Origin: Paramesorhizobium deserti
GTDB taxonomy: Bacteria > Pseudomonadota > Alphaproteobacteria > Rhizobiales > Rhizobiaceae
Length of the DNA: 64,000 nt
Assembly: GCF_001558695.1 (NCBI RefSeq)
Contig: NZ_LNTU01000038.1
Location: 124,001 to 188,000 of the forward strand
Direction of reading: 5' to 3'
Notes under the pieces: generated by a model
Seen by the model: only the letters and a program-made list of their open reading frames with translations
What the model was told of the DNA's origin: nothing
Database searches by the model: none
Program-made: the position numbers and the translations under genes
In this document: in pieces, positions 49,962 to 63,622 of the stretch
How positions within the stretch are numbered: the first letter of the stretch is position 1
Layout: each line of letters starts with the position of its first letter

Positions 49962-50300
49962 CTAGTGGCTGATCATCCAGGGCCTCGCGCCGACAAAGGA
50001 CTTGGACCCGTCCGGCCGGCGTGTGGTCCTTGACGAGCGTTCTGTCGAGCAGCAGGAACATCCGGGGCCATGAGAACGCTCGGAAAGCCTGTTGCTCTTC
50101 GGGGTGTGCCTGGCCTGCTCATTGACGGCGTGTGCGGCGCGCAGCCCCGTTTCCATCGAGGCAATGTTGGGCATGCGCAAAATAACGCGGCGAGCGGATT
50201 GCCCGCAGTCGGGGCAGTCGCGCGGCTCGGCGGATTTGGCCATGGGGCGGAGTGCGGTAAAGACACCGCACTCCGCGCATTCGTAGTCGTAGAAGGGCAT
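49962..50300 (-). CDS. fmdB: FmdB-type zinc ribbon protein
   Basis: A 112-residue protein from the ATG at 50300. Its first 45 residues are the FmdB zinc ribbon: MPFYDYECAECGVFTALRPM with Cys-x2-Cys and then RDCPDCGQSARRVI with the second pair. The rest is polar and probably disordered, ending in a Cys-containing stretch HGPGCSCCSTE. FmdB was described as a putative regulator of the formamidase operon of Methylophilus methylotrophus. It lies 10 bp after fmdA. Confidence 0.87.
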   Translation of the reverse strand: MPFYDYECAECGVFTALRPMAKSAEPRDCPDCGQSARRVILRMPNIASMETGLRAAHAVNEQARHTPKSNRLSERSHGPGCSCCSTERSSRTTRRPDGSKSFVGARPWMISH

Positions 50301-50310
50301 CGGGAGCACC

Positions 50311-51543
50311 TCAGAGGTCGGGAGCGAGCGGGACGGAGACCGAGCCGTCGAGGAACTTCGTCGGCCCGTCGCTGCCTGGCATGATGTCGAACTCGAAGAT
50401 ATCCGTCGGTAGCCACAAGGTCGCGCAGGCATTGGGGATGTCGACCACGCCCGAGATGTGGCCCTGGACCGGGGCCGTGCCGAGGATGGCATAGGCCTGG
50501 GCGCGCGAATAGCCGAACTTCGTCAGATACTCGATGGCGTTGAGGCAGGCCTGGCGGTAGGCGATGTGAACATCGAGATAATGCTGTTTGCCCGCCTCAT
50601 CGACAGAGATGCCTTCGAAGATCAGGTAATCGTCGTATCTGGGCGTGATGGGGGAAGGGCGGAAAATCGGGTTCCTGATGCCGTATTTGGCCATGCCGCC
50701 CTTGAGTAGCGACACCTTGATATGCAGCCAGCCGGCCATCTCAATGGCGCCGCAGAAGGTGATCTCGCCGTCGCCCTGGCTGAAATGCAGATCGCCCATG
50801 GAGAGCCCGGCGCCGTCCACATAGACGGGGAAATAGATCTTCGAGCCGCGGCTCAGATCCTTGATGTCGCAGTTGCCGCCATGCTCGCGCGGCGGCACGG
50901 TGCGGGCGCCTTCCGCCGCGGCCTTGTCGCGGGCCTCACCCTTGAGCTTGCCCATATGGGCGGTCTCGTCACCATTGGGGAGCGTGGCAAGTGCAGGTAC
51001 GCGCTCGGGATCCGTGTCGAACAGTGCCTTTTCGCGTGCGTTCCACGCCTCCAGCATCTTCCTGTCGGGCAGGCAGCCGATGAGCCCGGGATGGATGAGG
51101 CCGGCATATTTCACGCCTGGCACGTGGCGCGAGGAGGTGAACATACCGTGGAAATCCCAGATGGACTTCTGTGCTTCCGGAAAATGTTCGGTGAGGAAGC
51201 CACCACCGTTGTTCTTCGAGAAGAAGCCGTTAAATCCCCATAGCGAGTTTTCGACGGCGCCGATGTCGAGGATGTCGACCACCAGGAGATCACCGGGTTC
51301 CGCACCCTTGACGCCGATGGGGCCGGACAGGAAGTGGACCTGATTCAAGTCGACGTCGCGCACGTCGGCCGCGTCGTCGTCGTTCTTGATCTGCCCGCCC
51401 GTCCAGTCATAGGTCTCGACCCGAAAATCGTCGCCAGGCTCCACCCAGCAGGCCATGGGGATGTCGGGGTGCCAGCGGTTGTGGATCCTCTCGTTCTCGT
51501 AGGGTGAGGTGGCGAGATCGACCTTGATCAGTGTTTCGGGCAT
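50311..51543 (-). CDS. fmdA: Formamidase / acetamidase (FmdA)
   Basis: A 410-residue acetamidase/formamidase that hydrolyses short aliphatic amides to acid plus ammonia. It begins TLIKVDLATSPYENERIHNR and has GDLLVVDILDIGAV, GVKYAGLIHPGLIGCLPD, TVPPREHGGNCDIKDLSRG and VDGAGLSMGDLHFSQGDGE, all typical of the family. It is last but two in a transcript that starts with a urea/amide ABC transporter, so uptake and hydrolysis are coupled. Formamide and acetamide are likely substrates. Confidence 0.94.
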   Translation of the reverse strand: MPETLIKVDLATSPYENERIHNRWHPDIPMACWVEPGDDFRVETYDWTGGQIKNDDDAADVRDVDLNQVHFLSGPIGVKGAEPGDLLVVDILDIGAVENSLWGFNGFFSKNNGGGFLTEHFPEAQKSIWDFHGMFTSSRHVPGVKYAGLIHPGLIGCLPDRKMLEAWNAREKALFDTDPERVPALATLPNGDETAHMGKLKGEARDKAAAEGARTVPPREHGGNCDIKDLSRGSKIYFPVYVDGAGLSMGDLHFSQGDGEITFCGAIEMAGWLHIKVSLLKGGMAKYGIRNPIFRPSPITPRYDDYLIFEGISVDEAGKQHYLDVHIAYRQACLNAIEYLTKFGYSRAQAYAILGTAPVQGHISGVVDIPNACATLWLPTDIFEFDIMPGSDGPTKFLDGSVSVPLAPDL

Positions 51544-51573: not shown

Positions 51574-52263
51574 TCAGACGGACAGGAAGGCGGCGACTTT
51601 CTTTTCGTCGATGCCTTCCCGCCGGCTTTCGTGGACGAATTCGCCGTTCTCGATGACGAGCACGTGGTCGGCGATGTCGAGCGCGAAGCTCAAGACCTGC
51701 TCGGAGACGACGATGGAAAGGCCACGCTCGTCGCGGATGCGGCGCAGCGTGCGCGCCATCTCCTTGATGATCGAAGGCTGGATGCCCTCGGTCGGCTCGT
51801 CCAGCAGCAGCACCTTGGGCCGCGAGGCGAGCGCGCGGGCGATGGCGAGCTGCTGCTGTTGGCCGCCGGAGAGATTGCCGCCGCGCCGGTTCCTCATCTC
51901 CAGGAGCACCGGGAACAGCTCGTAGATGTCGCCGGGCACGGCGCTTTCGCCGGTGACGGTCAGCCCTGTCTCGATGTTCTCCTTCACTGTCATGGTGGAG
52001 AAGATCATGCGCCCCTGCGGCACGAAGGCGAGACCCTTGGCCACGCGCTCGTAGGGTTCGGAAGCCTCGATCGCTGCGCCGTCGATGCGAATGCCACCCG
52101 ATTGCGAGGGCAGCATGCCGATCAGCGACTTCATGAGCGTGGTCTTGCCCATGCCGTTGCGCCCCATGATGGCGACGATCTCGCCCGGTCTCACATCGAA
52201 GGAGACGGAATGGATCACCTCGCTCTGCCCGTAGGCGACGGAAAGATTGTCGACGCTCAACAT
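51574..52263 (-). CDS. urtE: Urea/short-chain amide ABC ATP-binding protein (UrtE)
   Basis: A 229-residue LivF-like ATPase. Walker A is GRNGMGKTTLMKSLIG, signature LSGGQQQQLAIARAL and Walker B VLLLDEPTEGIQPSI; the EGIQPSIIKEM stretch is characteristic of UrtE. It begins 3 bp after the urtD stop. Fifth gene of the transporter. Confidence 0.93.
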   Translation of the reverse strand: MLSVDNLSVAYGQSEVIHSVSFDVRPGEIVAIMGRNGMGKTTLMKSLIGMLPSQSGGIRIDGAAIEASEPYERVAKGLAFVPQGRMIFSTMTVKENIETGLTVTGESAVPGDIYELFPVLLEMRNRRGGNLSGGQQQQLAIARALASRPKVLLLDEPTEGIQPSIIKEMARTLRRIRDERGLSIVVSEQVLSFALDIADHVLVIENGEFVHESRREGIDEKKVAAFLSV

Positions 52264-52266
52264 TGT

Positions 52267-53031
<765 letters not shown>

Positions 53032-53042
53032 GAGTGAGCCTC

Positions 53043-54182
53043 CTATTCAGCGGCCAGCTTGACGGCTTCGACCGGTGCGGTGTCGGGAGCGGGCGACGGA
53101 GGCGATTTCCGCGTCAGCTTTGCCAAAAACGGCTCGACATGGGACCGGTAGAGCCCGGCAAGCCCATTGGGGAAAGCCATGACGACGGCGATGAAGAGCC
53201 CGCCCATGGCGAAGAGCCAAAGTTCCGGGAAAGTTTCGGAAAAGCTGGTCTTGGCCCAGTTGACGATGAGCGCGCCATAGACCGCGCCGAAGAGCGACAG
53301 CCGCCCGCCGACGGCGGCGAAAATGACCATCTCGATAGAGGGTACGATACCCACGAAGGAGGGCGACATGAAGCCCACCTGCAGGGTGAACATCGCCCCG
53401 CCGATGGCCGAGAAGGCGGCTGCCAGGCAGAAGATGAAGATCTTGAAATCGGCCACGCTGTAGCCGGAGAAGCGTACCCGGTCCTCCTTGTCGCGCATGG
53501 CGATGAGTAGCCGGCCGAACTTCGACATGCGCACCATCTGGCCGAGAACGAGGACGGCAATCAGGAGGACGGCGTTGACGAAATAGAGGATGAACTTGGC
53601 GCTGTCGGTGCGGATGTCCCAGCCGAGCAGCGTGCGCAGGTCGGTGATGCCGTTGACCCCGCCGGTATAGCCCTGCTGGCCGATGATGAGGATGGTGAGG
53701 ATGGCGGCGATGGCTTGCGTGATGATGGCGAAATAGACGCCGCCCACTCGCCTTTTGAACATCGCCGCGCCGATGACGTAGGCGAAGACGACCGGCACCA
53801 GGATGACGGCGGCGGCCGCGAAGGGGAAGGATTTGAACGGCACCCACCAGAAGGGGAGCTCGGTCACCTGGTTCCAGTCCATGAAGTCGGGGATGCCGGG
53901 GGTGGACTGGATGGCCGTATTCTCGGGGCTGGAGGCCTCGAGTTTCAGGAACATGGCCATGCAGTAGCCGCCGAGGCCGAAGAAGATTCCCTGGCCGAGG
54001 CTCAGGATTCCGCCATGCCCCCAACACAGCACCAGACCGACCGCCACGAAGGCATAGGTGAGGTACTTACCCACCAGATTGAGGCGGAAGACGTCCATGG
54101 TGACGGGAAAGACGATCAGGATGAGCGCGGCCACGATGGCAAGCGCAATCCATTCGCGCCTTGTGTAGAGGGTGGTGTTCAT
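53043..54182 (-). CDS. urtC: Urea/short-chain amide ABC permease (UrtC)
   Basis: A 379-residue LivM-type permease with about ten helices. Diagnostic parts are GLVLCWGHGGILSLGQGIFF, VIGAAMFKRRVGGVYFAIIT, RMSKFGRLLIAMRDKEDRVR and VGGRLSLFGAVYGALIVNWA. The C terminus is Pro/Ala rich. The gene lies 14 bp after urtB. Confidence 0.93.
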   Translation of the reverse strand: MNTTLYTRREWIALAIVAALILIVFPVTMDVFRLNLVGKYLTYAFVAVGLVLCWGHGGILSLGQGIFFGLGGYCMAMFLKLEASSPENTAIQSTPGIPDFMDWNQVTELPFWWVPFKSFPFAAAAVILVPVVFAYVIGAAMFKRRVGGVYFAIITQAIAAILTILIIGQQGYTGGVNGITDLRTLLGWDIRTDSAKFILYFVNAVLLIAVLVLGQMVRMSKFGRLLIAMRDKEDRVRFSGYSVADFKIFIFCLAAAFSAIGGAMFTLQVGFMSPSFVGIVPSIEMVIFAAVGGRLSLFGAVYGALIVNWAKTSFSETFPELWLFAMGGLFIAVVMAFPNGLAGLYRSHVEPFLAKLTRKSPPSPAPDTAPVEAVKLAAE

Positions 54183-54196
54183 GGCGTCGTCTCCCG

Positions 54197-55123
54197 TCAG
54201 CGGCGCATCTTGAGGGTGAAGAGACCTTCCGGCCGCAGCATGAGGATGCCGACCACGGTGAGAAGTGTGAGAACCTTGGCCATGGAGCCGGACATGAAGA
54301 ATTCCATCGTCGACTGCGCCTGGGAGATGGTGAAGGCGGAGGCAATGGTGCCGAGCAGGCTCGCAGCCCCGCCGAAGACGACGACCAGGAAAGTGTCGAC
54401 AATGTAGAGCTGGCCCGCTGTCGGCCCGGTGGAACCGATCATGGTGAAGGCCGAACCCGCCACGCCGGCCACACCGCAGCCGAGGCCGAAGGTGAGGCGG
54501 TCAACCTTCTTCGTGTTGATCCCGACCGCGCCCGCCATGGCGCGGTTCTGCACCACCGCGCGCACCTGTTTGCCCCAGCGGGAGCGGAACATCAGGAGGA
54601 AGACGGCAAGCGAGATGAGCATCGTGAGCGCCATCACGAAGATGCCGTTGATGGGCACCTCGATGATGTCGGTGAGTGCGAAGGAGCCCATCATCCAGTC
54701 GGGTAGGCTCACCCCCACCTCGCGCGCGCCGAAGACGGAGCGGTAGAGCTGCTGCAGGATAAGGCTCAGGCCCCAGGTGGCGAGCAGCGTGTCGAGTGGG
54801 CGCCTGTAGAGATGGCGGATCATCGCCCACTCCACCAGGATGCCGAGCGCGCCGGTGACGATGAAAGCGAGCGCCATCGCGATGAAGAAATAGGCGGGAA
54901 AGAGTGCGGGTGCGTAGGCTGTCACGAGCCCCGAGCAGAGCCAGGTGACATAGGCGCCCAGGATCATGAACTCGCCATGGGCCATGTTGATGACGCCCAT
55001 CTGGCCGAAGATGATGGCGAGCCCCAGCGCCATCAGCACGAAGACGGAGAAGAGGATCAGCCCGGCGAAACCCTGCATCGCCAGGATGGAGCTGAATTCG
55101 AGAAGGGTGTAGTCGCCGATCAT
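54197..55123 (-). CDS. urtB: Urea/short-chain amide ABC permease (UrtB)
   Basis: A 308-residue LivH-type permease: GLAIIFGQMGVINMAHGEFM, TLLATWGLSLILQQLYRSVF, QVRAVVQNRAMAGAVGINTK and VFGGAASLLGTIASAFTISQ are typical UrtB segments. The gap to urtA contains a strong hairpin, while the spacing to the later genes is tight. Confidence 0.93.
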   Translation of the reverse strand: MIGDYTLLEFSSILAMQGFAGLILFSVFVLMALGLAIIFGQMGVINMAHGEFMILGAYVTWLCSGLVTAYAPALFPAYFFIAMALAFIVTGALGILVEWAMIRHLYRRPLDTLLATWGLSLILQQLYRSVFGAREVGVSLPDWMMGSFALTDIIEVPINGIFVMALTMLISLAVFLLMFRSRWGKQVRAVVQNRAMAGAVGINTKKVDRLTFGLGCGVAGVAGSAFTMIGSTGPTAGQLYIVDTFLVVVFGGAASLLGTIASAFTISQAQSTMEFFMSGSMAKVLTLLTVVGILMLRPEGLFTLKMRR

Positions 55124-55211: not shown

Positions 55212-56474
55212 TTATTGATACCCTGCCGGGAACGGATCGGGCTGCACGAGATCGGCGGTCTCGAACACCACCTCGTACTGTCCGTCGTTCAGCGCATGGC
55301 CGACGCGGGTCTTCGACCACAGATGATGGTTCTCGTGGATGCGCACATAGCCTTCGGGCGCCTTGGCGAACTCGATGCCGGGAGAGGCCGCACGCACTTT
55401 GTCGATGTCGAAGCTGCCGGCCTTCTCCACCGCCATCTTCCAGAGCCAGGGACCGAGATAGGCGGCCTGCGTCACGTCTCCGATGACGATTTCGTCACCC
55501 CACATTTCCTTGAAGGCCTTGACGAATTCGGCATTGTTGTCGTTCGGCAGGCTCTGGAAGTATTTCATGCAGGCATAGGCGCCCACGATGTTCTCGCCGC
55601 CGATGCCGAGGATCTCATCCTCCGTTACCGAGATGGTGAGAAGCAGTGGCTTCTCCTTGGTCATGTCGATGCCGGCCGCCTTCAACTGCTTGTAAAAGGC
55701 GACGTTGGAGCCGCCGACGACGATGGCGTAGATGACATCGGGCTTGGTCAGCTTGATCTTGTTGATGACCGAATTGAACTGGGTGTGGCCGAGTGGGTAA
55801 TATTCCTCGCCCGACACCTTGAGGCCCAACTTCTCGATGTGCTTGCGGGCGATCTTGTTGGAGGTGCGCGGCCAGATATAGTCGGACCCCAGCAGATAGA
55901 AGCTCTTGGCGCCCTTGTTCTGCACCACCCAGTCGATGCCGGCGATGATCTGTTGTGTCGCTTCTTGGCCCGTATAGATGACGTTGGGAGACTGCTCCAG
56001 CCCCTCGTAGAAGGTCGGGTAGTAGAGCATGCCGTTATATTGCTCAAAGACCGGCAGCACCGCCTTGCGCGAGGCGGACGTCCAGCAGCCCATCACTGAG
56101 GCCACCTTGTCCTGCACGAGCAGCTTCTTGGCTTTCTCGGCGAAGGTTGGCCAGTCGGAGGCGCCGTCCTCCTGGATGAAGTCGATCTGCCTGCCGAGCA
56201 CGCCGCCTGCTTCGTTGATCTGCTTGATGGCGAGTTTCTCCGCCTGCACGGAACCGGTCTCTGAAATCGCCATCGTGCCGGTGACCGAGTGAAGGATGCC
56301 GACCGTCACCTTGTCGTCGGTCACTGCAAGCCCGGTTGTATTCACCTCCGCAGTCGGATAATCGGCTGCGTTCACCTTGCCGCCAAGCATGCCCATGAAA
56401 GGCAGGGCGCTGAAGCCCGCCAGCACTTGGCGGCGTGTGGCTGAAAGTGCTTTTTTAGGAGTGTCGTCGCTCAT
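55212..56474 (-). CDS. urtA: Urea/short-chain amide ABC substrate-binding protein (UrtA/FmdD type)
   Basis: A 420-residue receptor from the ATG at 56474. It has a twin-arginine signal (ALSATRRQVLAGFSALPFMG). UrtA/FmdD motifs: VGILHSVTGTMAISETGS, MGCWTSASRKAVLPVFEQYN, YYPTFYEGLEQSPNVIYTGQ and FYLLGSDYIWPRTSNKIARK. The YPTFYEGLEQSPN form differs somewhat from classic urea receptors and, with fmdA downstream, points to formamide or acetamide as ligand. First gene of the long amide transcript, divergent from the sensor kinase. Confidence 0.92.
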   Translation of the reverse strand: MSDDTPKKALSATRRQVLAGFSALPFMGMLGGKVNAADYPTAEVNTTGLAVTDDKVTVGILHSVTGTMAISETGSVQAEKLAIKQINEAGGVLGRQIDFIQEDGASDWPTFAEKAKKLLVQDKVASVMGCWTSASRKAVLPVFEQYNGMLYYPTFYEGLEQSPNVIYTGQEATQQIIAGIDWVVQNKGAKSFYLLGSDYIWPRTSNKIARKHIEKLGLKVSGEEYYPLGHTQFNSVINKIKLTKPDVIYAIVVGGSNVAFYKQLKAAGIDMTKEKPLLLTISVTEDEILGIGGENIVGAYACMKYFQSLPNDNNAEFVKAFKEMWGDEIVIGDVTQAAYLGPWLWKMAVEKAGSFDIDKVRAASPGIEFAKAPEGYVRIHENHHLWSKTRVGHALNDGQYEVVFETADLVQPDPFPAGYQ

Positions 56475-56764
56475 GATGATGCCCTGTCCCGTTAGCCAAT
56501 TGTCAAAGCGTGCTGGCTTGCTGGATGCCAACTGCTGCAATTTTGGACATCAAAGCGATTTGCCTATCAACGGGGCATTTAACGTATTCACGTTGCCCGA
56601 ATTTACCCGTAAGCTGCGGGAAATGACGGAGTGTGAGGGCGGCGAATAAGGTGAATGGAGGGGCATTGAAGGCCCCCGACGGATGTGGAGGGTTAGAACA
56701 AGGGAGAGTTTTTGAGGGACAGGCCTGCGCTGTTGTTGCGGGCCGTCAGGGTTTTGGGGAACAT

Positions 56765-59700
56765 ATGACTGCAGGGTTCAAGGTTACCCGCACCAGACGC
56801 ACCTACAATAAGTGGGTGGCCAATCAGACACTTGAAGACTTTGCGCTGCGCTTCACCGCCCACAGGGTCCGCAAATGGTCTGCTTGGCGCATCGCCAACA
56901 CTGCAATCGGCGCGGTCTCGTTTCTCGCGCTGGAGGCGATCGGTGGAACGTTGACGCTGAACTACGGCTTTGAAACCACTTTCTGGGCTGTGGTTTCGAG
57001 CTGTTTCGTCATATTTCTTCTGGGAATCCCTATCTCCTACAATTCGGCGAAATACGGCGTCGACATCGATCTTCTGACGCGCGGTGCCGGCTTCGGCTAT
57101 CTTGGCTCGACCGTTACATCGCTGATCTATGCCAGCTTCACCTTCATCTTCTTCTCCATAGAGGCGGCGATCATGGCGGCCGCGCTGGAGTTGTGTTTCG
57201 GCATTCCTCTTGCCGCTGGTTATCTGGTCAGCGCGCTTCTGATCATCCCGCTCGTCATTCACGGCATCACCTTCATCAACAGGTTCCAGGCCTGGACCCA
57301 ACCCTTCTGGCTGTGTCTGCAGGTGTTACCTTTCGTATATATCGGCGCACAAAGTCTTCCCTCCGTGCGGGAATGGACCGGCTATACCGGCCTGCTCGGC
57401 CCTGTGGACGGCACATTCTCCTTGCCCTTGTTCGGCGCGGCGTCGGCCGTCGTCTTCTCGGTCGTCGCCCAGATCGGCGAGCAGGTGGATTATCTGCGGT
57501 TTCTGCCGCGCAAGCTGCACACCAATCGCGTTGCCTGGTGGACGGCATTGCTTGCGGCGGGGCCGGGATGGGTGGTGATCGGCGCATTGAAGATGCTGGC
57601 GGGTTCGTTCCTGGCCTACTACGCCTTTGAAAGCGGCGTTGCCTTTCATGACGCTTCCGAACCGACGCAGATGTATCTGACCGTATTCCGGGACATGGTT
57701 GCCAGCCCCGAATTCGCTCTGGCGCTGACCGGCATCTTCGTCGTTCTGTGCCAGGTGAAGATCAACGTTACCAACACCTATGCCGGCTCCATCGCTTGGT
57801 CGAATTTCTTCTCCCGTCTCACACACAGCCACCCCGGCCGGGTCGTGTGGGTGGTGTTCAACGTGGTGATCGGTGTGCTGCTGATGCAGTTCGGGGTCTA
57901 TAAGGGGTTGGAGCAGGTTCTCGGGCTCTACGCCATCATCGCCGGGGCCTGGCTGGCGGCGATCGTCTCGGATCTGACCATCAACAAGCCGCTCGGCCTG
58001 TCGCCTCGCTATATCGAGTTCAAGCGGGCGCATCTCTATGACATCAACCCGGTCGGCTTCGGGGCCGTGGCCATCGCCATTCTGCTGTCGCTGATGTCTT
58101 ATCTCGGCTGGTTCGGGAGCGTGGCGGCTGCGCTCTACGCCCACGTCGCCATCGGCTCCGCCATTCTGCTCGCGCCCCTGATCGCCGTTGCCACCGGCGG
58201 GCGCTACTATCTTGCCCGGACCTCATCCGCGTCCGGTTCGCAACAGACATTGCAGTGCTGTGTCTGTGAGCACAGTTTTGAGGTGGAGGACATGGCTGCC
58301 TGTCCCGTGTACAGGGGGCCGATCTGTTCTTTGTGCTGCTCGCTCGATGCGCATTGCGGCGACCGCTGCAAGGAAAATGCGCGTTTCGCGGAGCAGATCG
58401 GCATATTTGCCAGAGCGGTTTTCCCACCCCGCATCGCTTCCCTGGTCAGTTCGCGGATCGGTACATATCTCGGCATATTGCTGGTTGTCAGCGCTGTGAT
58501 CGCCCTGGTCCTGCTGGTGGTTTACTACCAGTCCACGGCCCGCGACGGCCTGCCGCCGGAGCTCGTTTCGCTGATGTTCCTCCGGTTGTTCGTGATCATC
58601 TTCGTTATCGCTGCGGTCATGGTCTGGCTCTTCGTGCTGGCCCATGAGAGCCGTGTCTTTGCCGAGGATGAAGCGCGCCGCCACACGACCTTACTTATGG
58701 ATGAGATCGAAGCGCATGAAGAGACTGACCGGCTACTTCAAAAAGCCAAGGAAGCTGCCGAGTCGGCCAATCAGGCCAAGAGCAAATATATCGTCGGTCT
58801 CAGCCATGAATTGCGCACGCCGCTCAACTCCATCCTCGGCTATGCGCAGTTGCTCAACCGCCGCGACCTGACGCCGGAGATCGTCGCTAATGCCGCGCGC
58901 ACCATCAAGCGCTCCGGCGAACATCTGGTCGGGCTGATCGAGGGGTTGCTCGACATATCGAAGATCGAGGCGGGGCGAATGCAAATCTACCGTGACAAGA
59001 CGGCGTTGCGCCCCTATCTCGACCAGCTCGTGGACATGTTCTCCCTTCAGGCTGCCGAAAAGGACATCCGCTTCGTTTTCGAGCCGGGGCCGTATATCCC
59101 CGACTATGTCTACACGGACGAGAAGAGGCTGCGGCAGATTCTGATCAACCTCCTGTCGAACGCAGTCAAATTCACCGAAGCTGGGCAGGTGTCGCTGCGC
59201 GTAACCTATCGCAGCCAGATCGCCATTTTTGAGATCGAGGACACCGGACCCGGTATTGCTGCGGCGGATATCGAGCGCATCTTCCTTCCCTTCGAGCGGA
59301 TCGAGGATGCGAATGGGAGCGGTCATCCGCCCGGCACAGGACTTGGCCTGACAATCACCAAGCTCCTCGTCGAGATCATGGGCGGCGGTCTGAGCGTGAA
59401 GTCGGATCCCGGTGTGGGAACCGTGTTCACCGTGCGGTTGATGCTGGGCGCTGCCACCCGCCCCGATGATCAAAAGCGCCCCGCAGCCGCCATTGCCGGC
59501 CTCAAGAGCGGGCCGCACAGCGTCCTGATTGCCGACGATGACCCGGTCCAACGCGCGCTCATCACAGACATTCTGGTGCCTTTGGGGTTTGAGGTGACTG
59601 CAGTTCCCAATGGCCCCACCTGTTTGGAGGCCTTGAATGAATTCCGACCGGATATCCTGCTCCTGGATGTGGCCATGCCCGGCCTGTCCGGCTGGCAGGT

Positions 59701-59923
59701 GGCACGCATCGTGCGGGAAGGCATGCATCCGCTTTTGCCGATCGTCATGATTTCGGCGGATGCGGGCAACGAGCGCAACCTCAACGATTACCGACGCTTG
59801 CATGATGGTTATCTCATCAAGCCGTTCAGCATCGATGATCTGGTCGAACAACTGAGCTCAACGCTTGATGTCGAATGGAACTATCACCCGCAACAGGTTT
59901 TGCGCAGCAGTGGAGTCGGTTGA
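56765..59923 (+). CDS. Hybrid sensor kinase with NCS1-transporter-like input domain and cysteine-rich linker
   Basis: A 1052-residue membrane protein. Residues 1-480 look like an NCS1 nucleobase/allantoin permease with about 12 helices (WRIANTAIGAVSFLALEAIG, DIDLLTRGAGFGYLGSTVTS, QIGEQVDYLRFLPRK). Residues 498-535 hold nine cysteines (498, 499, 501, 513, 521, 524, 525, 531, 535) plus His503 and His530, a possible zinc or redox module. Two more helices (about 556-588 and 602-628) and a coiled coil lead to HisKA (His681 in GLSHELRTPLNSILGY), an HATPase domain (INLLSNAVKFTE, GTGLGLTITK) and a receiver domain with Asp968 and Lys1019. The ATG at 56765 follows GGGGA. Divergent from urtA, so it probably senses amides or urea and drives that operon. 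Confidence 0.9.
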   Translation: MTAGFKVTRTRRTYNKWVANQTLEDFALRFTAHRVRKWSAWRIANTAIGAVSFLALEAIGGTLTLNYGFETTFWAVVSSCFVIFLLGIPISYNSAKYGVDIDLLTRGAGFGYLGSTVTSLIYASFTFIFFSIEAAIMAAALELCFGIPLAAGYLVSALLIIPLVIHGITFINRFQAWTQPFWLCLQVLPFVYIGAQSLPSVREWTGYTGLLGPVDGTFSLPLFGAASAVVFSVVAQIGEQVDYLRFLPRKLHTNRVAWWTALLAAGPGWVVIGALKMLAGSFLAYYAFESGVAFHDASEPTQMYLTVFRDMVASPEFALALTGIFVVLCQVKINVTNTYAGSIAWSNFFSRLTHSHPGRVVWVVFNVVIGVLLMQFGVYKGLEQVLGLYAIIAGAWLAAIVSDLTINKPLGLSPRYIEFKRAHLYDINPVGFGAVAIAILLSLMSYLGWFGSVAAALYAHVAIGSAILLAPLIAVATGGRYYLARTSSASGSQQTLQCCVCEHSFEVEDMAACPVYRGPICSLCCSLDAHCGDRCKENARFAEQIGIFARAVFPPRIASLVSSRIGTYLGILLVVSAVIALVLLVVYYQSTARDGLPPELVSLMFLRLFVIIFVIAAVMVWLFVLAHESRVFAEDEARRHTTLLMDEIEAHEETDRLLQKAKEAAESANQAKSKYIVGLSHELRTPLNSILGYAQLLNRRDLTPEIVANAARTIKRSGEHLVGLIEGLLDISKIEAGRMQIYRDKTALRPYLDQLVDMFSLQAAEKDIRFVFEPGPYIPDYVYTDEKRLRQILINLLSNAVKFTEAGQVSLRVTYRSQIAIFEIEDTGPGIAAADIERIFLPFERIEDANGSGHPPGTGLGLTITKLLVEIMGGGLSVKSDPGVGTVFTVRLMLGAATRPDDQKRPAAAIAGLKSGPHSVLIADDDPVQRALITDILVPLGFEVTAVPNGPTCLEALNEFRPDILLLDVAMPGLSGWQVARIVREGMHPLLPIVMISADAGNERNLNDYRRLHDGYLIKPFSIDDLVEQLSSTLDVEWNYHPQQVLRSSGVG

Positions 59924-60888
59924 TGTATGGAGAACTGCATGGGCGCGGCACAACACAGTGGCCAGAGAGAATCGCGATGAAACCGCAGGCGCAATCAGCC
60001 CCTGTCGTTCTCGTGGTCGACGATTCACCCGATACGCTCGGAATGCTCACGGACGCCCTCGATCTGGAGGGCATGAAGGTGTTCCTTGCCGATAGCGGCC
60101 GCGCCGCCTTGAACCTCGCACGGGATATCGAGCCGGATATCATTCTCATGGATGCGAAAATGCCGGGCCTCGATGGTTTCGAAACCTGTCGCATACTGAA
60201 AACCGAGATGGGGATGGCCGACACCCCGGTCATTTTCATGACGGGGTTCGGGGACAGCGAGCATGTGGTAAACGCTTTTGCGTCGGGTGGCGTCGACTTC
60301 GTCGTCAAACCCGTTCCACTGGTGGAGCTTTTGGCGCGTATGCGGGCGCATCTGGCCAATGCACGCCGCGCGCGCTCGGCGCGCGATGCGCTCGACAACA
60401 CCGGCCGGCGCATCTTGGTCACCGATGCGGCGGGCCGGGTCCTGTGGGCAACGCCGCAGGCAAACGATCTCCTGATACTATGCGGTATTGCCATCGAGGA
60501 AGGCAGCCGGCTGCCGTGGGAGCTCACCGACTGGCTCTTGTCGCAAAACGCAAACGGCAGACAGGCCTATCTTTTTCAACGCAACGGAAAGCAAATCGAG
60601 TTTCGCGCCGCTGGTGGCGCGGAAGGTTCGGAGCGACTGGTACGGCTGATCGATCGTGATGCCGGAACGGACGAAGAGCGCCTGGCCATCGCATTCGGAT
60701 TGTCGCTGCGCGTCGCCGAGGTGCTGCTATGGATCACGCATGGTAAGTCGAACAGAGAGATCGCCGAAATTCTCGATCTGTCGCCACGCACGGTCAACAA
60801 GCATCTGGAACAGATCTTCGACAAGCTGGGGGTGGAGAACCGCACCGCCGCTGCGACCATGTCGGTGCGCATTCTATGGAATGAATAG
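59923..60888 (+). CDS. Response regulator with LuxR-type DNA-binding domain
   Basis: A 321-residue regulator whose ATG overlaps the kinase stop (TGATG). The receiver domain has Asp33-34, phospho-acceptor Asp77 in IILMDAKMPG and Lys129 in FVVKPVP. A PAS-like middle segment (ILVTDAAGRVLWATPQAND) follows, and the C terminus is a LuxR/FixJ helix-turn-helix (LDLSPRTVNKHLEQIFDKLG). It is the obvious partner of the hybrid kinase and the likely activator of the urtABCDE-fmdAB transcript. A start at 59977 (MKPQAQ) is also possible. Confidence 0.92.
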   Translation: MYGELHGRGTTQWPERIAMKPQAQSAPVVLVVDDSPDTLGMLTDALDLEGMKVFLADSGRAALNLARDIEPDIILMDAKMPGLDGFETCRILKTEMGMADTPVIFMTGFGDSEHVVNAFASGGVDFVVKPVPLVELLARMRAHLANARRARSARDALDNTGRRILVTDAAGRVLWATPQANDLLILCGIAIEEGSRLPWELTDWLLSQNANGRQAYLFQRNGKQIEFRAAGGAEGSERLVRLIDRDAGTDEERLAIAFGLSLRVAEVLLWITHGKSNREIAEILDLSPRTVNKHLEQIFDKLGVENRTAAATMSVRILWNE

Positions 60889-61363: not shown

Positions 61364-63622
61364 ATGACCGACCTTGTTGTCAGCTTTATCATGAGCGGCG
61401 GCGTCGGTTCACGGCTTTGGCCGCTGTCGCGAGAGGATTTCCCGAAACAGTTTCACGACCTTTCCGGCCAGGGATCGATGCTGCAGAAGACGGTCCGGCG
61501 GATGCGTGCGCGCCGGGCCGGATCGGCGCCGGCTTACCTGCTCGCATCGGAGCTCCACGCCGCCCGCATCGGCCAGGATCTGGCCGGCATCGGGCTTGGC
61601 GGCGGCAGGCCGATCTTCGAGCCGGTGGGCCGCAATACGGCTGCCGCCGTGGTGCTCGCCACCGAGATAACGTCGCGCGAACATGGCGATGCGCTCGTCC
61701 TGGTCGTGCCCTCCGATCACGAGATCTCCACCGATCGCGATTTCTGGGACACGGTCGAGGCAGGCGTGCCGGCCGCCCTTGACGGGCGTATCGTCGTTTT
61801 CGGCATTCGGCCGGACAAGCCGGAAACCGGCTTCGGCTATGTCGAAACCGGGCCTGAAAATGACGGAGTGCGCGATGTCGTCCGGTTCATCGAAAAGCCG
61901 GACGAGGCGGCGGCGAAATCCTATCTGCAGCAGGGAAATTTTTGCTGGAACGCCGGCATTTTCTTGTTCCGCGCGAGCGTCATGCGCGAGGCTTTCCTGA
62001 CGCATGCGCCGGAGATCTGGCACGGCGCGGTGGCGGCGCTCGATCAGGCGGTGACGGATGTGTCCGGCACCTACCTGCCATACGATCTCTATGCCGCCGT
62101 GCCTTCGATCTCGGTGGATTACGCGATCATGGAGCATATCCGCAATATCGGGCTGGTCGAGGCGCGATTCCGCTTCCACGATCTTGGTTCCTGGCAGTCG
62201 CTCCTCGACATGCGCGCCCAGTCGGGCGAGCATGACGGCGATGGCAATGTCGTGGTGGGCGATGTTGTCGCCATCGATTGCGAGCACAGCTATCTGCGCA
62301 GCGAGGGGCGACTGATCTCGGCGGTGGGCCTGCGCGACATGGCGGTCGTCGCCACGGAGGATGCGACCTTCGTCGCGCCGATCTCCGAAAGCCAGCATGT
62401 CCGCAAGATCGTCGAGCAGCTGGAGAAGACGGGGCGGCTCGAGACGAAATTCACGCCCGCGCCCGACCGCATGCCGGTGGCGGGCGCCTATGCGGACCGC
62501 GTGCATCATTGGCTGTTCGAGGAGACCCTGCCGCTCTGGTCGACCGTGGGCGTGGACGAACGCCATGGCGGCTTCTTCGAGGTGCTGTCGCTCACCGGCC
62601 TGCCGATCGAGCGGATCAAGCGCACGCGCACCATGGCACGCCAGATCTATGCCTTCGCGGTGGCCAAGGAGATGGGTTGGGACGGCCCGGCGAGGGAACT
62701 GATCGATCACGGCATACGCTTCATCAAGGCGCATGGCCGCACCGAGCGCGGCGGCTGGGTGAAGACATTCAATCCGGATGGCAGCGCGGCGGACCCGACC
62801 GAGGATGCCTACGACCAGTCATTCGTTCTCTTGGCGCTGGCCCATGCCCATAAGGCGGGACACAGGGATGCCCTGCCGCTTGCGACGGAGACATTCGCCT
62901 TCATCGACGAATATCTCGCCGATGCGCGGTGCGCCGGCTTCCTTGAGGAGCCGGCCGATCGTGACAGGCCGGACTGCATGCGCCGCTCCAACCCGCACAT
63001 GCATCTGCTGGAGACTTTTCTCGCCTGGCATTCCGTCACGGGCGAGCGCGGCTTCCTCGAGCGCGCCGCACGCATCGTCGATCTTTTCCGCTGTCGCTTC
63101 TTCGATCCCGATAGCTGGACGCTGGGCGAGTTCTTTACCCAGACCTGGGAGCGCATGCCTGGCGAGAAAGGCGAATGGACGGAGCCGGGCCATCATTTCG
63201 AATGGGCGTCGCTGCTTGTCGCATTCGCCGCTGCCTCCGGCCAGAAGGATGTGGTGCGGCTCGGGCGCAAGCTCTATGCCTCGGCCATCGCCAACGGGCT
63301 CAACCGGGCAACGGGCCTTGCCTATAATTCGGTTTCCCGCCACGGCCTGCCTATCGACCGCAATTCGCGCAGCTGGCCGCAGACCGAGGCGATCAAGGCG
63401 GCCATTGCGCTCGACGGCAATGGCGGACCTGATCTGAAACCGGAGATAGAAGCGCGTGTCGGACGCCTGTTCCGCTGGCATATCGAGCCGGCGCCGAAGG
63501 GTCTCTGGATCGATCTGATCGATGAAGAAGGGCGCGCGCGGGCCAATGACGTCCCCGCCTCCATCTTTTATCATCTCGTCTGCGCACTGACGCAATATAT
63601 GGATTTTGCCAGGAAGGTTTAG
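61364..63622 (+). CDS. Fused mannose-1-phosphate guanylyltransferase and AGE-family isomerase
   Basis: A 752-residue fusion. The first part, about 1-350, is a GDP-mannose pyrophosphorylase: SGGVGSRLWPLSREDFPKQF, FEPVGRNTAAAVVLATEI, VPSDHEISTD, VRFIEKPDEAAA and CWNAGIFLFRASVM. From about 370 to the end is an (alpha/alpha)6 barrel of the N-acylglucosamine 2-epimerase / mannose isomerase family (RTMARQIYAFAVAKEMGWDG, YDQSFVLLALAHAHKAGH, EPGHHFEWASLLVAFAA, RSWPQTEAIKAAIAL). In most bacteria ManC is instead fused to a cupin-type phosphomannose isomerase. The AGE half may supply mannose-6-phosphate isomerisation. Product GDP-mannose would serve O-antigen or exopolysaccharide synthesis. Start ATG follows GGGGTGA. 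Confidence 0.92.
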   Translation: MTDLVVSFIMSGGVGSRLWPLSREDFPKQFHDLSGQGSMLQKTVRRMRARRAGSAPAYLLASELHAARIGQDLAGIGLGGGRPIFEPVGRNTAAAVVLATEITSREHGDALVLVVPSDHEISTDRDFWDTVEAGVPAALDGRIVVFGIRPDKPETGFGYVETGPENDGVRDVVRFIEKPDEAAAKSYLQQGNFCWNAGIFLFRASVMREAFLTHAPEIWHGAVAALDQAVTDVSGTYLPYDLYAAVPSISVDYAIMEHIRNIGLVEARFRFHDLGSWQSLLDMRAQSGEHDGDGNVVVGDVVAIDCEHSYLRSEGRLISAVGLRDMAVVATEDATFVAPISESQHVRKIVEQLEKTGRLETKFTPAPDRMPVAGAYADRVHHWLFEETLPLWSTVGVDERHGGFFEVLSLTGLPIERIKRTRTMARQIYAFAVAKEMGWDGPARELIDHGIRFIKAHGRTERGGWVKTFNPDGSAADPTEDAYDQSFVLLALAHAHKAGHRDALPLATETFAFIDEYLADARCAGFLEEPADRDRPDCMRRSNPHMHLLETFLAWHSVTGERGFLERAARIVDLFRCRFFDPDSWTLGEFFTQTWERMPGEKGEWTEPGHHFEWASLLVAFAAASGQKDVVRLGRKLYASAIANGLNRATGLAYNSVSRHGLPIDRNSRSWPQTEAIKAAIALDGNGGPDLKPEIEARVGRLFRWHIEPAPKGLWIDLIDEEGRARANDVPASIFYHLVCALTQYMDFARKV

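Follow-up and report, generated by a model that had tools for sequence, protein, structure and literature searches.

What does a histidine kinase sense when its N-terminal half resembles a transporter, and which genes does it control? This question is raised by a hybrid histidine kinase encoded in a 64,000-nucleotide stretch of the Paramesorhizobium deserti genome (contig NZ_LNTU01000038.1, positions 124,001 to 188,000), hereafter the window. We propose that this kinase is a urea/short-chain-amide receptor derived from an NCS1-like permease and that it controls a divergent operon via a LuxR-type regulator, a reading to which we give a probability of about 70%. The domain order, the fold, the conservation of eight cysteines and one lysine, the genomic linkage and a conserved inverted repeat, on which this reading is built, were computed directly.

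A hybrid histidine kinase with an NCS1-like sensor domain

The initial annotation of the locus described a sensor kinase with an NCS1-like permease body of about 12 helices, a nine-cysteine module, two extra helices and a hybrid kinase core. The list of open reading frames (ORFs) and Pfam agreed with its ORF, coordinates and domain order. HisKA was found at residues 674-737, HATPase_c at 784-894 and a receiver domain (Response_reg) at 920-1030, each of the two phosphorylation sites being present as H and D, which identifies a hybrid histidine kinase, while the first 660 residues matched no Pfam family above cut-off. AlphaFold2, run with residues 1-660 plus 48 relatives, gave a model with a mean predicted local distance difference test score (pLDDT) of 81.4 and a predicted template modelling score of 0.82. 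Reading off its helix list, about 12 transmembrane helices extend to residue 477, followed by a small strand-rich module at 495-527 and, after the cysteines, by two long helices at 564-593 and 598-659, so that the model and Pfam together matched the permease body, the two extra helices and the kinase core described before. The window kinase and its sister L021 also end about 70 amino acids short of most relatives (window 59855-59923), and the consensus of the relatives has a majority His in the stretch that these two lack.

We compared the model with the PDB using Foldseek and found that ranks 1-5 were all NCS1 structures, namely CodB (E-values of 2.7e-9 and 7.1e-9) and Mhp1 (7.4e-9, 8.4e-9 and 1.3e-7), with TM-scores of 0.68-0.80 by target length, indicating a LeuT fold with CodB and Mhp1 as the nearest structures. 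The sialic acid symporter SiaT (E 1.3e-6) and NIS followed at ranks 6 and 7. Neither PF02133 nor PF00474 appeared in the Pfam table of the window (E<=10) or among the matches listed (25 of 34 families) for 49 kinases. The permease domain could thus not be assigned by Pfam directly, and because PF02133 does not reach the kinases, the NCS1 assignment was based on the fold and on a chain of homologues instead. A profile built from kinase residues 1-490 was searched against small databases; it matched free-standing NCS1-type permeases of the order with E-values down to 5e-32, whereas the best-scoring of nine SSS proteins reached 1.3e-4, and 4 of the 13 NCS1-type proteins scored worse than 0.01. 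The clearest bridge from the kinases to NCS1 is P0003, a 535-residue Klebsiella protein annotated as 'cytosine permease', which is 39% identical to the window kinase along its residues 19-534 (516 residues) and 38-48% identical to the kinases listed, and which passes PF02133 with 38.1 bits (E 1.1e-9; cut-off 23.5). Taken together, the Foldseek ranking, the profile scores and P0003 support an NCS1-like rather than an SLC5-type sensor domain. The NCS1 call of the initial annotation thus held by fold, profile and homologue, but not by a direct PF02133 match on the kinases.

An ordinary SLC5/STAC kinase of the CbrA, CrbS or RpuS type would likewise be a LeuT-fold transporter fused to a kinase, and the sixth and seventh Foldseek ranks of SiaT and NIS fit such a protein. 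We nevertheless rejected membership in this family and regard it as next to impossible, since PF00474 is absent from the window's table and from the families listed for the 49 kinases, the SSS score falls far behind the NCS1-type score and Foldseek puts NCS1 first; the comparison of the N-terminal region with NCS1 and SSS profiles, named beforehand as the check on this point, yielded no SSS match. A PF00474 search of the window's own genome gave a match on another contig only, and a general Pfam scan of the window kinase returned no STAC-like match, although the presence of a STAC model in that library was not established.

Amide and urea genes accompany the kinase across proteobacteria

Given that the initial annotation placed the kinase divergent from an amide uptake and hydrolysis operon, which was borne out by urtA-E, fmdA and fmdB lying opposite the kinase and its regulator, we counted such neighbours at the level of loci. 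Three locus sets, which overlap in kind, were used. The first has 46 loci and comes from the order, where 48 of 199 genomes match, 45 at E<1e-100; the second has 80 named loci, the best 80 of at least 589 relatives, and leans towards window-like members; the third has 16 loci from a sample of the phylum. The 142 kinases form 125 groups at 95% identity. Neighbour genes were called by tblastn with fixed score cut-offs and were not curated, and upstream counts were restricted to loci with at least 5 kb of upstream DNA, which left out 16. We found fmdA, urease, amiE/amiF or urt genes near the kinase in 125 of 126 loci (43/43 in the order, 67/68 in the named set and 15/15 in the phylum), urt genes being the commonest neighbour. 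Of 131 loci with at least 3.5 kb downstream, 126 have a separate regulator homologue 3' of the kinase, the exceptions being L063-L066 and L278.

The partner genes vary in composition. They comprise urtA-E with fmdA, often together with amiE; urea-type urtA-E alone or plus urease; urease alone (L145, L265, L266, L273 and L279); and fmdA alone (L063-L065 and L278). On a Klebsiella plasmid (L234), where one kinase stretch was examined, the kinase and regulator are divergent from urtA-E-amiF. NCBIfam confirmed UrtA, UreA and UreC in L144 and AmiF in L234. The hydrolases in question, FmdA, AmiF/AmiE and urease, are of three unrelated, non-homologous types, and on a quick tree of 125 kinases (no bootstrap, with a long-branch warning) the amide or urea label of the partner genes switches at least four times. 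The enzyme family changes but the substrate class stays, and this is our main argument for urea and amides as the signal. The earlier idea of amide or urea sensing is therefore supported by a context that reaches far beyond the window and that includes most of the permease homologues described below. In L063, L064, L065 and L278 fmdA lies downstream on the same strand and a LuxR-type regulator of this kind was not found near; the kinases of L063-L065 are 878-885 amino acids long. The permease domain of the kinase has matches in 342 Klebsiella plasmid records; those listed call the protein 'ATP-binding protein', 'response regulator' or 'hybrid sensor histidine kinase'.

The prevalence of urt genes also fits a kinase that reads transport, either as flux through its own permease domain or as the state of UrtABCDE in the manner of partner-coupled sensors, and so does the retention of the pocket residues of free-standing relatives (see below). 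However, no urt match was found in the stretches read for L265, L266, L273, L278 and L279, which have urease or fmdA alone, and a Methylovirgula locus holds a single, short urtA-like fragment; Urt is therefore not required. Together with changes in helix 1 that are specific to the kinases and argue against retained transport, these loci make a transport-reading kinase rather unlikely.

Most free-standing permease relatives examined sit beside such hydrolases

We then asked which genes surround the permeases nearest to the sensor domain, using seven loci hand-picked from 20 rows among 535 records. Five of the seven hold such a hydrolase. The Klebsiella permease (L232:6962-8569) follows ureD-A-B-C-E and ureG; the Acinetobacter ursingii locus (L281:8959-10566) reads permease, ureEFG, hupE/ureJ, ureD and ureABC; the Moraxella permease (L282:8959-10602) is divergent from fmdA-fmdB; the Arthrobacter locus (L284:7941-9617) carries permease, aliphatic amidase, an ATPase and acs; and in Methylovirgula the order is fmdB-fmdA, kinase-regulator, permease and aliphatic amidase. 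In an unannotated Acinetobacter baumannii record (L286:5287-10563) the permease and a kinase of the same family, the latter with its regulator, are transcribed divergently with 156 bp between them. The Klebsiella, A. ursingii, Moraxella and Arthrobacter proteins, named cytosine/allantoin permease or hypothetical, are probably misnamed urea/short-amide permeases.

Known NCS1 ligands are ring amides, and more distant cysteine-bearing permeases adjoin hydantoinase genes, as would be expected if the kinase bound another NCS1-type compound (a hydantoin, ureide or nucleobase) and induced the amide genes as downstream nitrogen salvage. We consider this improbable, because formamide, short amides and urea are the substrates of the partner enzymes, and no hydantoinase or purine gene was among the matches listed in the annotated near-permease loci, for which the gene tables are incomplete. 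The distant permeases L067:4923-6566 and L233:7113-8741 have a four-cysteine C-terminal motif and each follows hydantoinase/oxoprolinase-type genes; the L067 locus also holds an AmiC/UrtA-like protein.

In a tree of 57 kinases with six near and six outgroup permeases, the root of which hangs on a long outgroup branch, the kinases formed one clade with support of 98/99, indicating that the fusion of permease and kinase most likely happened once.

The pocket is shared, and a lysine aligns with the sodium site of Mhp1

To map the residues of the pocket, the kinases and permeases were aligned with Mhp1 and CodB by MAFFT. Mhp1 Ser312 and Thr313, which we take to be Na+ ligands, align with Lys332 and Ile333 of the window kinase, which thus lacks the Mhp1-type Na+ site. 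Position 332 is K in 143 of 143 aligned kinases and in the six near permeases, and R in three outgroup permeases. Lysine at the sodium position means that the domain need not depend on Na+; to our knowledge, an Mhp1-type site is not required of all NCS1 members, and judged from the alignment we file the domain as NCS1-like and probably cation-independent. Mhp1 Gln121, Asn314 and Asn318 correspond to Glu133, Asn334 and Asn337, and E133, Q236, E239, Q240, Q330, K332, N334 and N337 are identical in the kinases and the six near permeases aligned. Residue 129 (window 57149-57151), at the position of Mhp1 Trp117, for which we assume a stacking role, is F in 102 of 104 amide-type kinases and L in 26 of 33 urea-type kinases. 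It may possibly be a specificity switch with exceptions, and is offered as a lead only.

Eight invariant cysteines link the permease domain to the kinase core

All nine cysteines reported for residues 498-535 are present (498, 499, 501, 513, 521, 524, 525, 531 and 535), of which C499 is variable, being conserved in 8 of 47 proteins only. The other eight, spaced C-x2-C-x11-C-x7-C-x2-CC-x5-C-x3-C, are invariant in 47 of 47 aligned proteins and in 49 of 49 of a second alignment, and 126 of the 127 kinase frames carry the full pattern, the remaining one, L143, being a broken frame of 181 amino acids. A lack of conservation had been named beforehand as grounds for dismissing the module; the outcome was the opposite for eight cysteines, and C499 drops out of the nine. 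No Pfam or PDB family matched the module convincingly, the PDB matches being short zinc-finger pieces, and AlphaFold2 modelled the module alone with a modest pLDDT of 70. Eight conserved potential metal ligands are what a cross-brace two-zinc finger of the RING, FYVE, ZZ or PHD type has.

The Klebsiella, A. ursingii, Moraxella, Paracoccus and L067 permeases keep cysteines 498, 501, 521 and 524 and have lost 513, 525, 531 and 535; the Streptomyces permease additionally retains 513, the Arthrobacter permease retains 498 only, and the kinase-less Methylovirgula permease has all eight. Four of eight cysteines in the permeases fit two four-cysteine metal sites, the first of which would be the older. 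We therefore regard the module as probably a rigid two-zinc cross-brace linker, the metal being deduced from the cysteine pattern. Of the 'zinc-ribbon-like or redox' description, the zinc-ribbon part is plausible and the redox role has no specific support.

A module profile strongly matched (E<1e-20) 52 of 398 sampled genomes of the phylum, always in frames of 894-1365 amino acids, and five genomes gave weak matches only. We accordingly dropped the idea of a stand-alone cysteine domain; the permease forms came from homologue searches. Another possibility is that the module is the true sensor, of metal or redox state, with the permease part as a membrane anchor. Eight invariant cysteines including a vicinal pair, and the nickel requirement of urease, would suit such a role, but many residues of the permease core are equally invariant, the same eight cysteines occur in urease- and FmdA-linked members, and the module is complete in a permease without a kinase and present in four-cysteine form in others. 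Nothing beyond the cysteines supports metal or redox sensing as the main input, which we rejected and hold to be improbable.

A conserved inverted repeat lies between the kinase and urtA

We collected 112 regions between urtA and the kinase, dereplicated them to 89 and derived from these same regions the consensus TACGTC-N4-GACGTA. It occurs exactly in 35 of the 89, with at most one mismatch in 58 and with at most two in 64, compared with means of 0, 0 and 0.3 in shuffled sets at the same thresholds. Allowing three mismatches, all 21 urea-type regions and 54 of the 68 amide-type ones contain it, the shuffles then giving 6.85 of 89. In urt-linked loci held out from the derivation (the urt-fmdA loci L267-L270, L272, L274, L276 and L277, and the Klebsiella plasmid locus L234), the repeat was present with at most one mismatch in 9 of 9, six of them exact. 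The window kinase belongs to a sub-clade of ten kinases with a conserved variant repeat whose left half is altered. A related repeat, TACGCC-N4-GGCGCA, lies upstream of the kinase in L265 and L279; urease-linked L266 has this repeat or one close to it.

In a scan of 15 genomes, hand-chosen among those with good sites, 13 of the 14 exact sites fell at the kinase locus. By eye, the extra exact site (G050) stands before a hydrolase-like ORF of unknown kind; among sites with one mismatch, that in G142 is near no amide gene, that in G193 lies inside an ORF beside a nitrilase-type hydrolase and not upstream of its start, and that in L035 lies about 1.4 kb beyond fmdA, in the same neighbourhood.

Proposed mechanism and its weighing

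We propose that the sensor domain at the N-terminus evolved from an NCS1-like permease whose substrates were urea or small amides. The ligand would be formamide or a related amide for the window kinase and urea for urease-linked members; on entering the permease cavity it would move the domain between its alternating states, for which Na+ would not be needed given Lys332. This movement could reach the DHp coiled coil by way of the eight-cysteine module, probably a rigid brace, and the hairpin of helices. It would there alter the autophosphorylation of H681 and, with D968 as intermediate, the phosphorylation state of the LuxR-type regulator. The regulator would then bind the inverted repeat in the intergenic region of kinase and urtA, which reads TACGTC-N4-GACGTA in most urt-linked members, and induce the uptake and hydrolase genes. 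In this scheme we infer the ligand, any transport, the metal, the direction of signalling and the contact between regulator and operator, and ligand binding without transport fits as well as flux.

Several observations weigh against this reading. The Pfam NCS1 model is blind to the kinases themselves, and the Foldseek matches of the module, which include RING, ZZ, FYVE and PHD, were not significant (best E 0.33 at the model pLDDT given above). In helix 1, nearly all kinases have F53, L56 and E57 where the permeases have Y53, D56 and F/Q57, so the kinases may no longer transport and their ligand might differ. The change of residue 129 from F to L is not universal, as 7 of 33 urea-linked kinases keep F; the exceptions to the rule are most beta members and L144. 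As for the neighbourhood, the lone locus outside the count of 125, L126 of Azospirillum, has full flanks in which urt, fmd, ami and urease genes are all absent. Around the A. baumannii permease, 19.5 kb gave no match to urt, fmdA, amidase or urease, and the Streptomyces permease locus also lacks such genes. Of the 43 order-sample loci, 17 have urea-type urt genes but lack a hydrolase in the DNA read, and 16 of the 17 showed none further upstream either. Urease elsewhere in those genomes does not discriminate, because 18 of 19 amide-type genomes have it too, and we dropped it as support. The neighbours of L126, by eye, resemble receptor and signalling genes.

The remaining points concern the repeat. 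In the window itself, one half of the operator is altered. Within 450 bp upstream of the kinase, no site with at most one mismatch was found in seven urease-linked loci (L145, L265, L266, L271, L273, L275 and L279), nor was one found upstream of the kinase in L063, L064, L278, L126 and L136. The same threshold gave no operator near the seven free-standing permease loci, the best operator-like site at A. baumannii L286 having three mismatches. Moreover, a reversed control pattern was as common or commoner in 11 of the 15 genomes scanned; therefore only exact sites count, and no further regulon members are claimed from the operator.

The receptor reading described above has a wider, more tentative extension, which we hold at somewhat below even odds: that the NCS1-like subfamily labelled cytosine/allantoin permease consists of urea/short-amide permeases tied to urease and amidase genes, and that one of its branches became, a single time, a receptor kinase with a Na+-free, lysine-locked cavity for the direct binding of urea or formamide. 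If so, alpha-, beta- and gammaproteobacteria share a urea/formamide sensor that derives from a transporter, is dedicated to this task and has an operator of its own. A protein without a name would gain a testable ligand, a target operon and an operator. Receptor and permease versions share the pocket and differ in few residues, and the change from transporter to receptor is therefore directly testable; in two records (Methylovirgula and A. baumannii) they stand side by side. The use of urea and formamide matters for soil nitrogen.

Features of the window

The features discussed are collected in Table 1. Near the fmdB end of the operon lies a MEKHLA-domain protein (PF08670; 49309-49770), and downstream of the regulator an ORF of 752 amino acids (61364-63622), by eye a mannose-1-phosphate guanylyltransferase fused to a sugar epimerase.

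Table 1. Kinase domains, neighbouring genes and presumed operator, in window coordinates.
Feature	Position	Strand	Basis or remark
Hybrid histidine kinase with NCS1-permease-like sensor domain, P0001	56765..59923	+	1052 aa; ORF, ATG at 56765; Pfam HisKA, HATPase_c, Response_reg
NCS1-like permease domain, residues ~40-480, about 12 helices, LeuT fold	56882..58204	+	AlphaFold2, Foldseek, profile and homologue chain
Lys332	57758..57760	+	Aligned with Mhp1 Ser312; K in 143/143 kinases
Cysteine module, residues 498-535, probable two-metal site	58256..58369	+	Conservation; AlphaFold2; Foldseek (not significant)
Two further helices (564-593; start of 598-659), then presumably coiled coil into DHp domain	58454..58654	+	AlphaFold2
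HisKA (H681 in SHELRTP) and HATPase_c	58784..59446	+	Pfam
Receiver domain (D968)	59522..59854	+	Pfam
LuxR-type response regulator (REC and GerE), P0002; start may be 59923	59977..60888	+	Pfam
Presumed operator, altered left half, right half TTAACGTAT	56568..56589		Small changes, all 10 sub-clade members
urtA-type substrate-binding protein, divergent from kinase	55212..56474	-	TIGR03407, 546 bits (cut-off 493)
urtB	54197..55123	-	TIGR03409
urtC	53043..54182	-	TIGR03408
urtD	52267..53031	-	TIGR03411
urtE	51574..52263	-	TIGR03410
fmdA formamidase	50311..51543	-	NF045496, 776 bits (cut-off 500)
fmdB zinc-ribbon protein	49962..50300	-	TIGR02605; start placed separately

Comparison with known systems

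CodB and Mhp1 are the best fold matches; Mhp1 Asn318 and Asn314 have their counterparts in N337 and N334, whereas Ser312/Thr313 and Gln121 are replaced by Lys332/Ile333 and Glu133, and the window domain is fused to a kinase. The SLC5-STAC kinases (CbrA, CrbS and RpuS), like the window kinase, have a LeuT-fold transporter N-terminal to a histidine kinase; they combine an SSS domain with a STAC four-helix bundle, whereas the window kinase combines an NCS1-like domain with the eight-cysteine module and two helices and has amide/urea neighbours. In CbrA the lysine K196 fills the Na2 site (PMC13022988); the invariant Lys332 is aligned with an Mhp1 Na+ ligand but lies on helix 8, another helix. The window kinase works like the CbrA-type transceptor kinases and is not a member of that family. 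Ks-Amt5 of Kuenenia likewise joins a transporter domain for a nitrogen nutrient to a histidine kinase (PMC5764959), but it has the Amt/Rh fold and another ligand, and the Pfam tables of the window contain no Amt family.

On the side of the target genes, AmiC/AmiR and FmdB-type control share with the window the theme of amide-responsive control of amidase and amide-uptake genes, though AmiC/AmiR uses a binding-protein sensor and antitermination (PMC13209695) and the window a membrane two-component system. The same paper calls fmdB a positive regulator of formamidase, and FmdB is also encoded in the window; urtABCDE next to fmdA was suggested there to take up formamide. In Methylophilus, formamide and urea are reported to induce a gene cluster for a formamidase and amide/urea uptake (PMC10781810), and in Ectopseudomonas an unnamed histidine kinase and LuxR regulator stand beside a second urtABCDE operon (PMC13296017). 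GrtK was considered as a prior description and, in the portion of its report at hand, does not match the window kinase (PMC12918730). No description of this kinase was among the matches listed in the open-access literature on transporter kinases, nucleobase symporters, urt/urease, formamidase and allantoin permease. With this architecture found in 52 of the 398 sampled genomes of the phylum, the window kinase adds an NCS1-like transporter family and a new linker module to the transporter-headed kinases, which are few and include the SLC5/STAC and Amt types.

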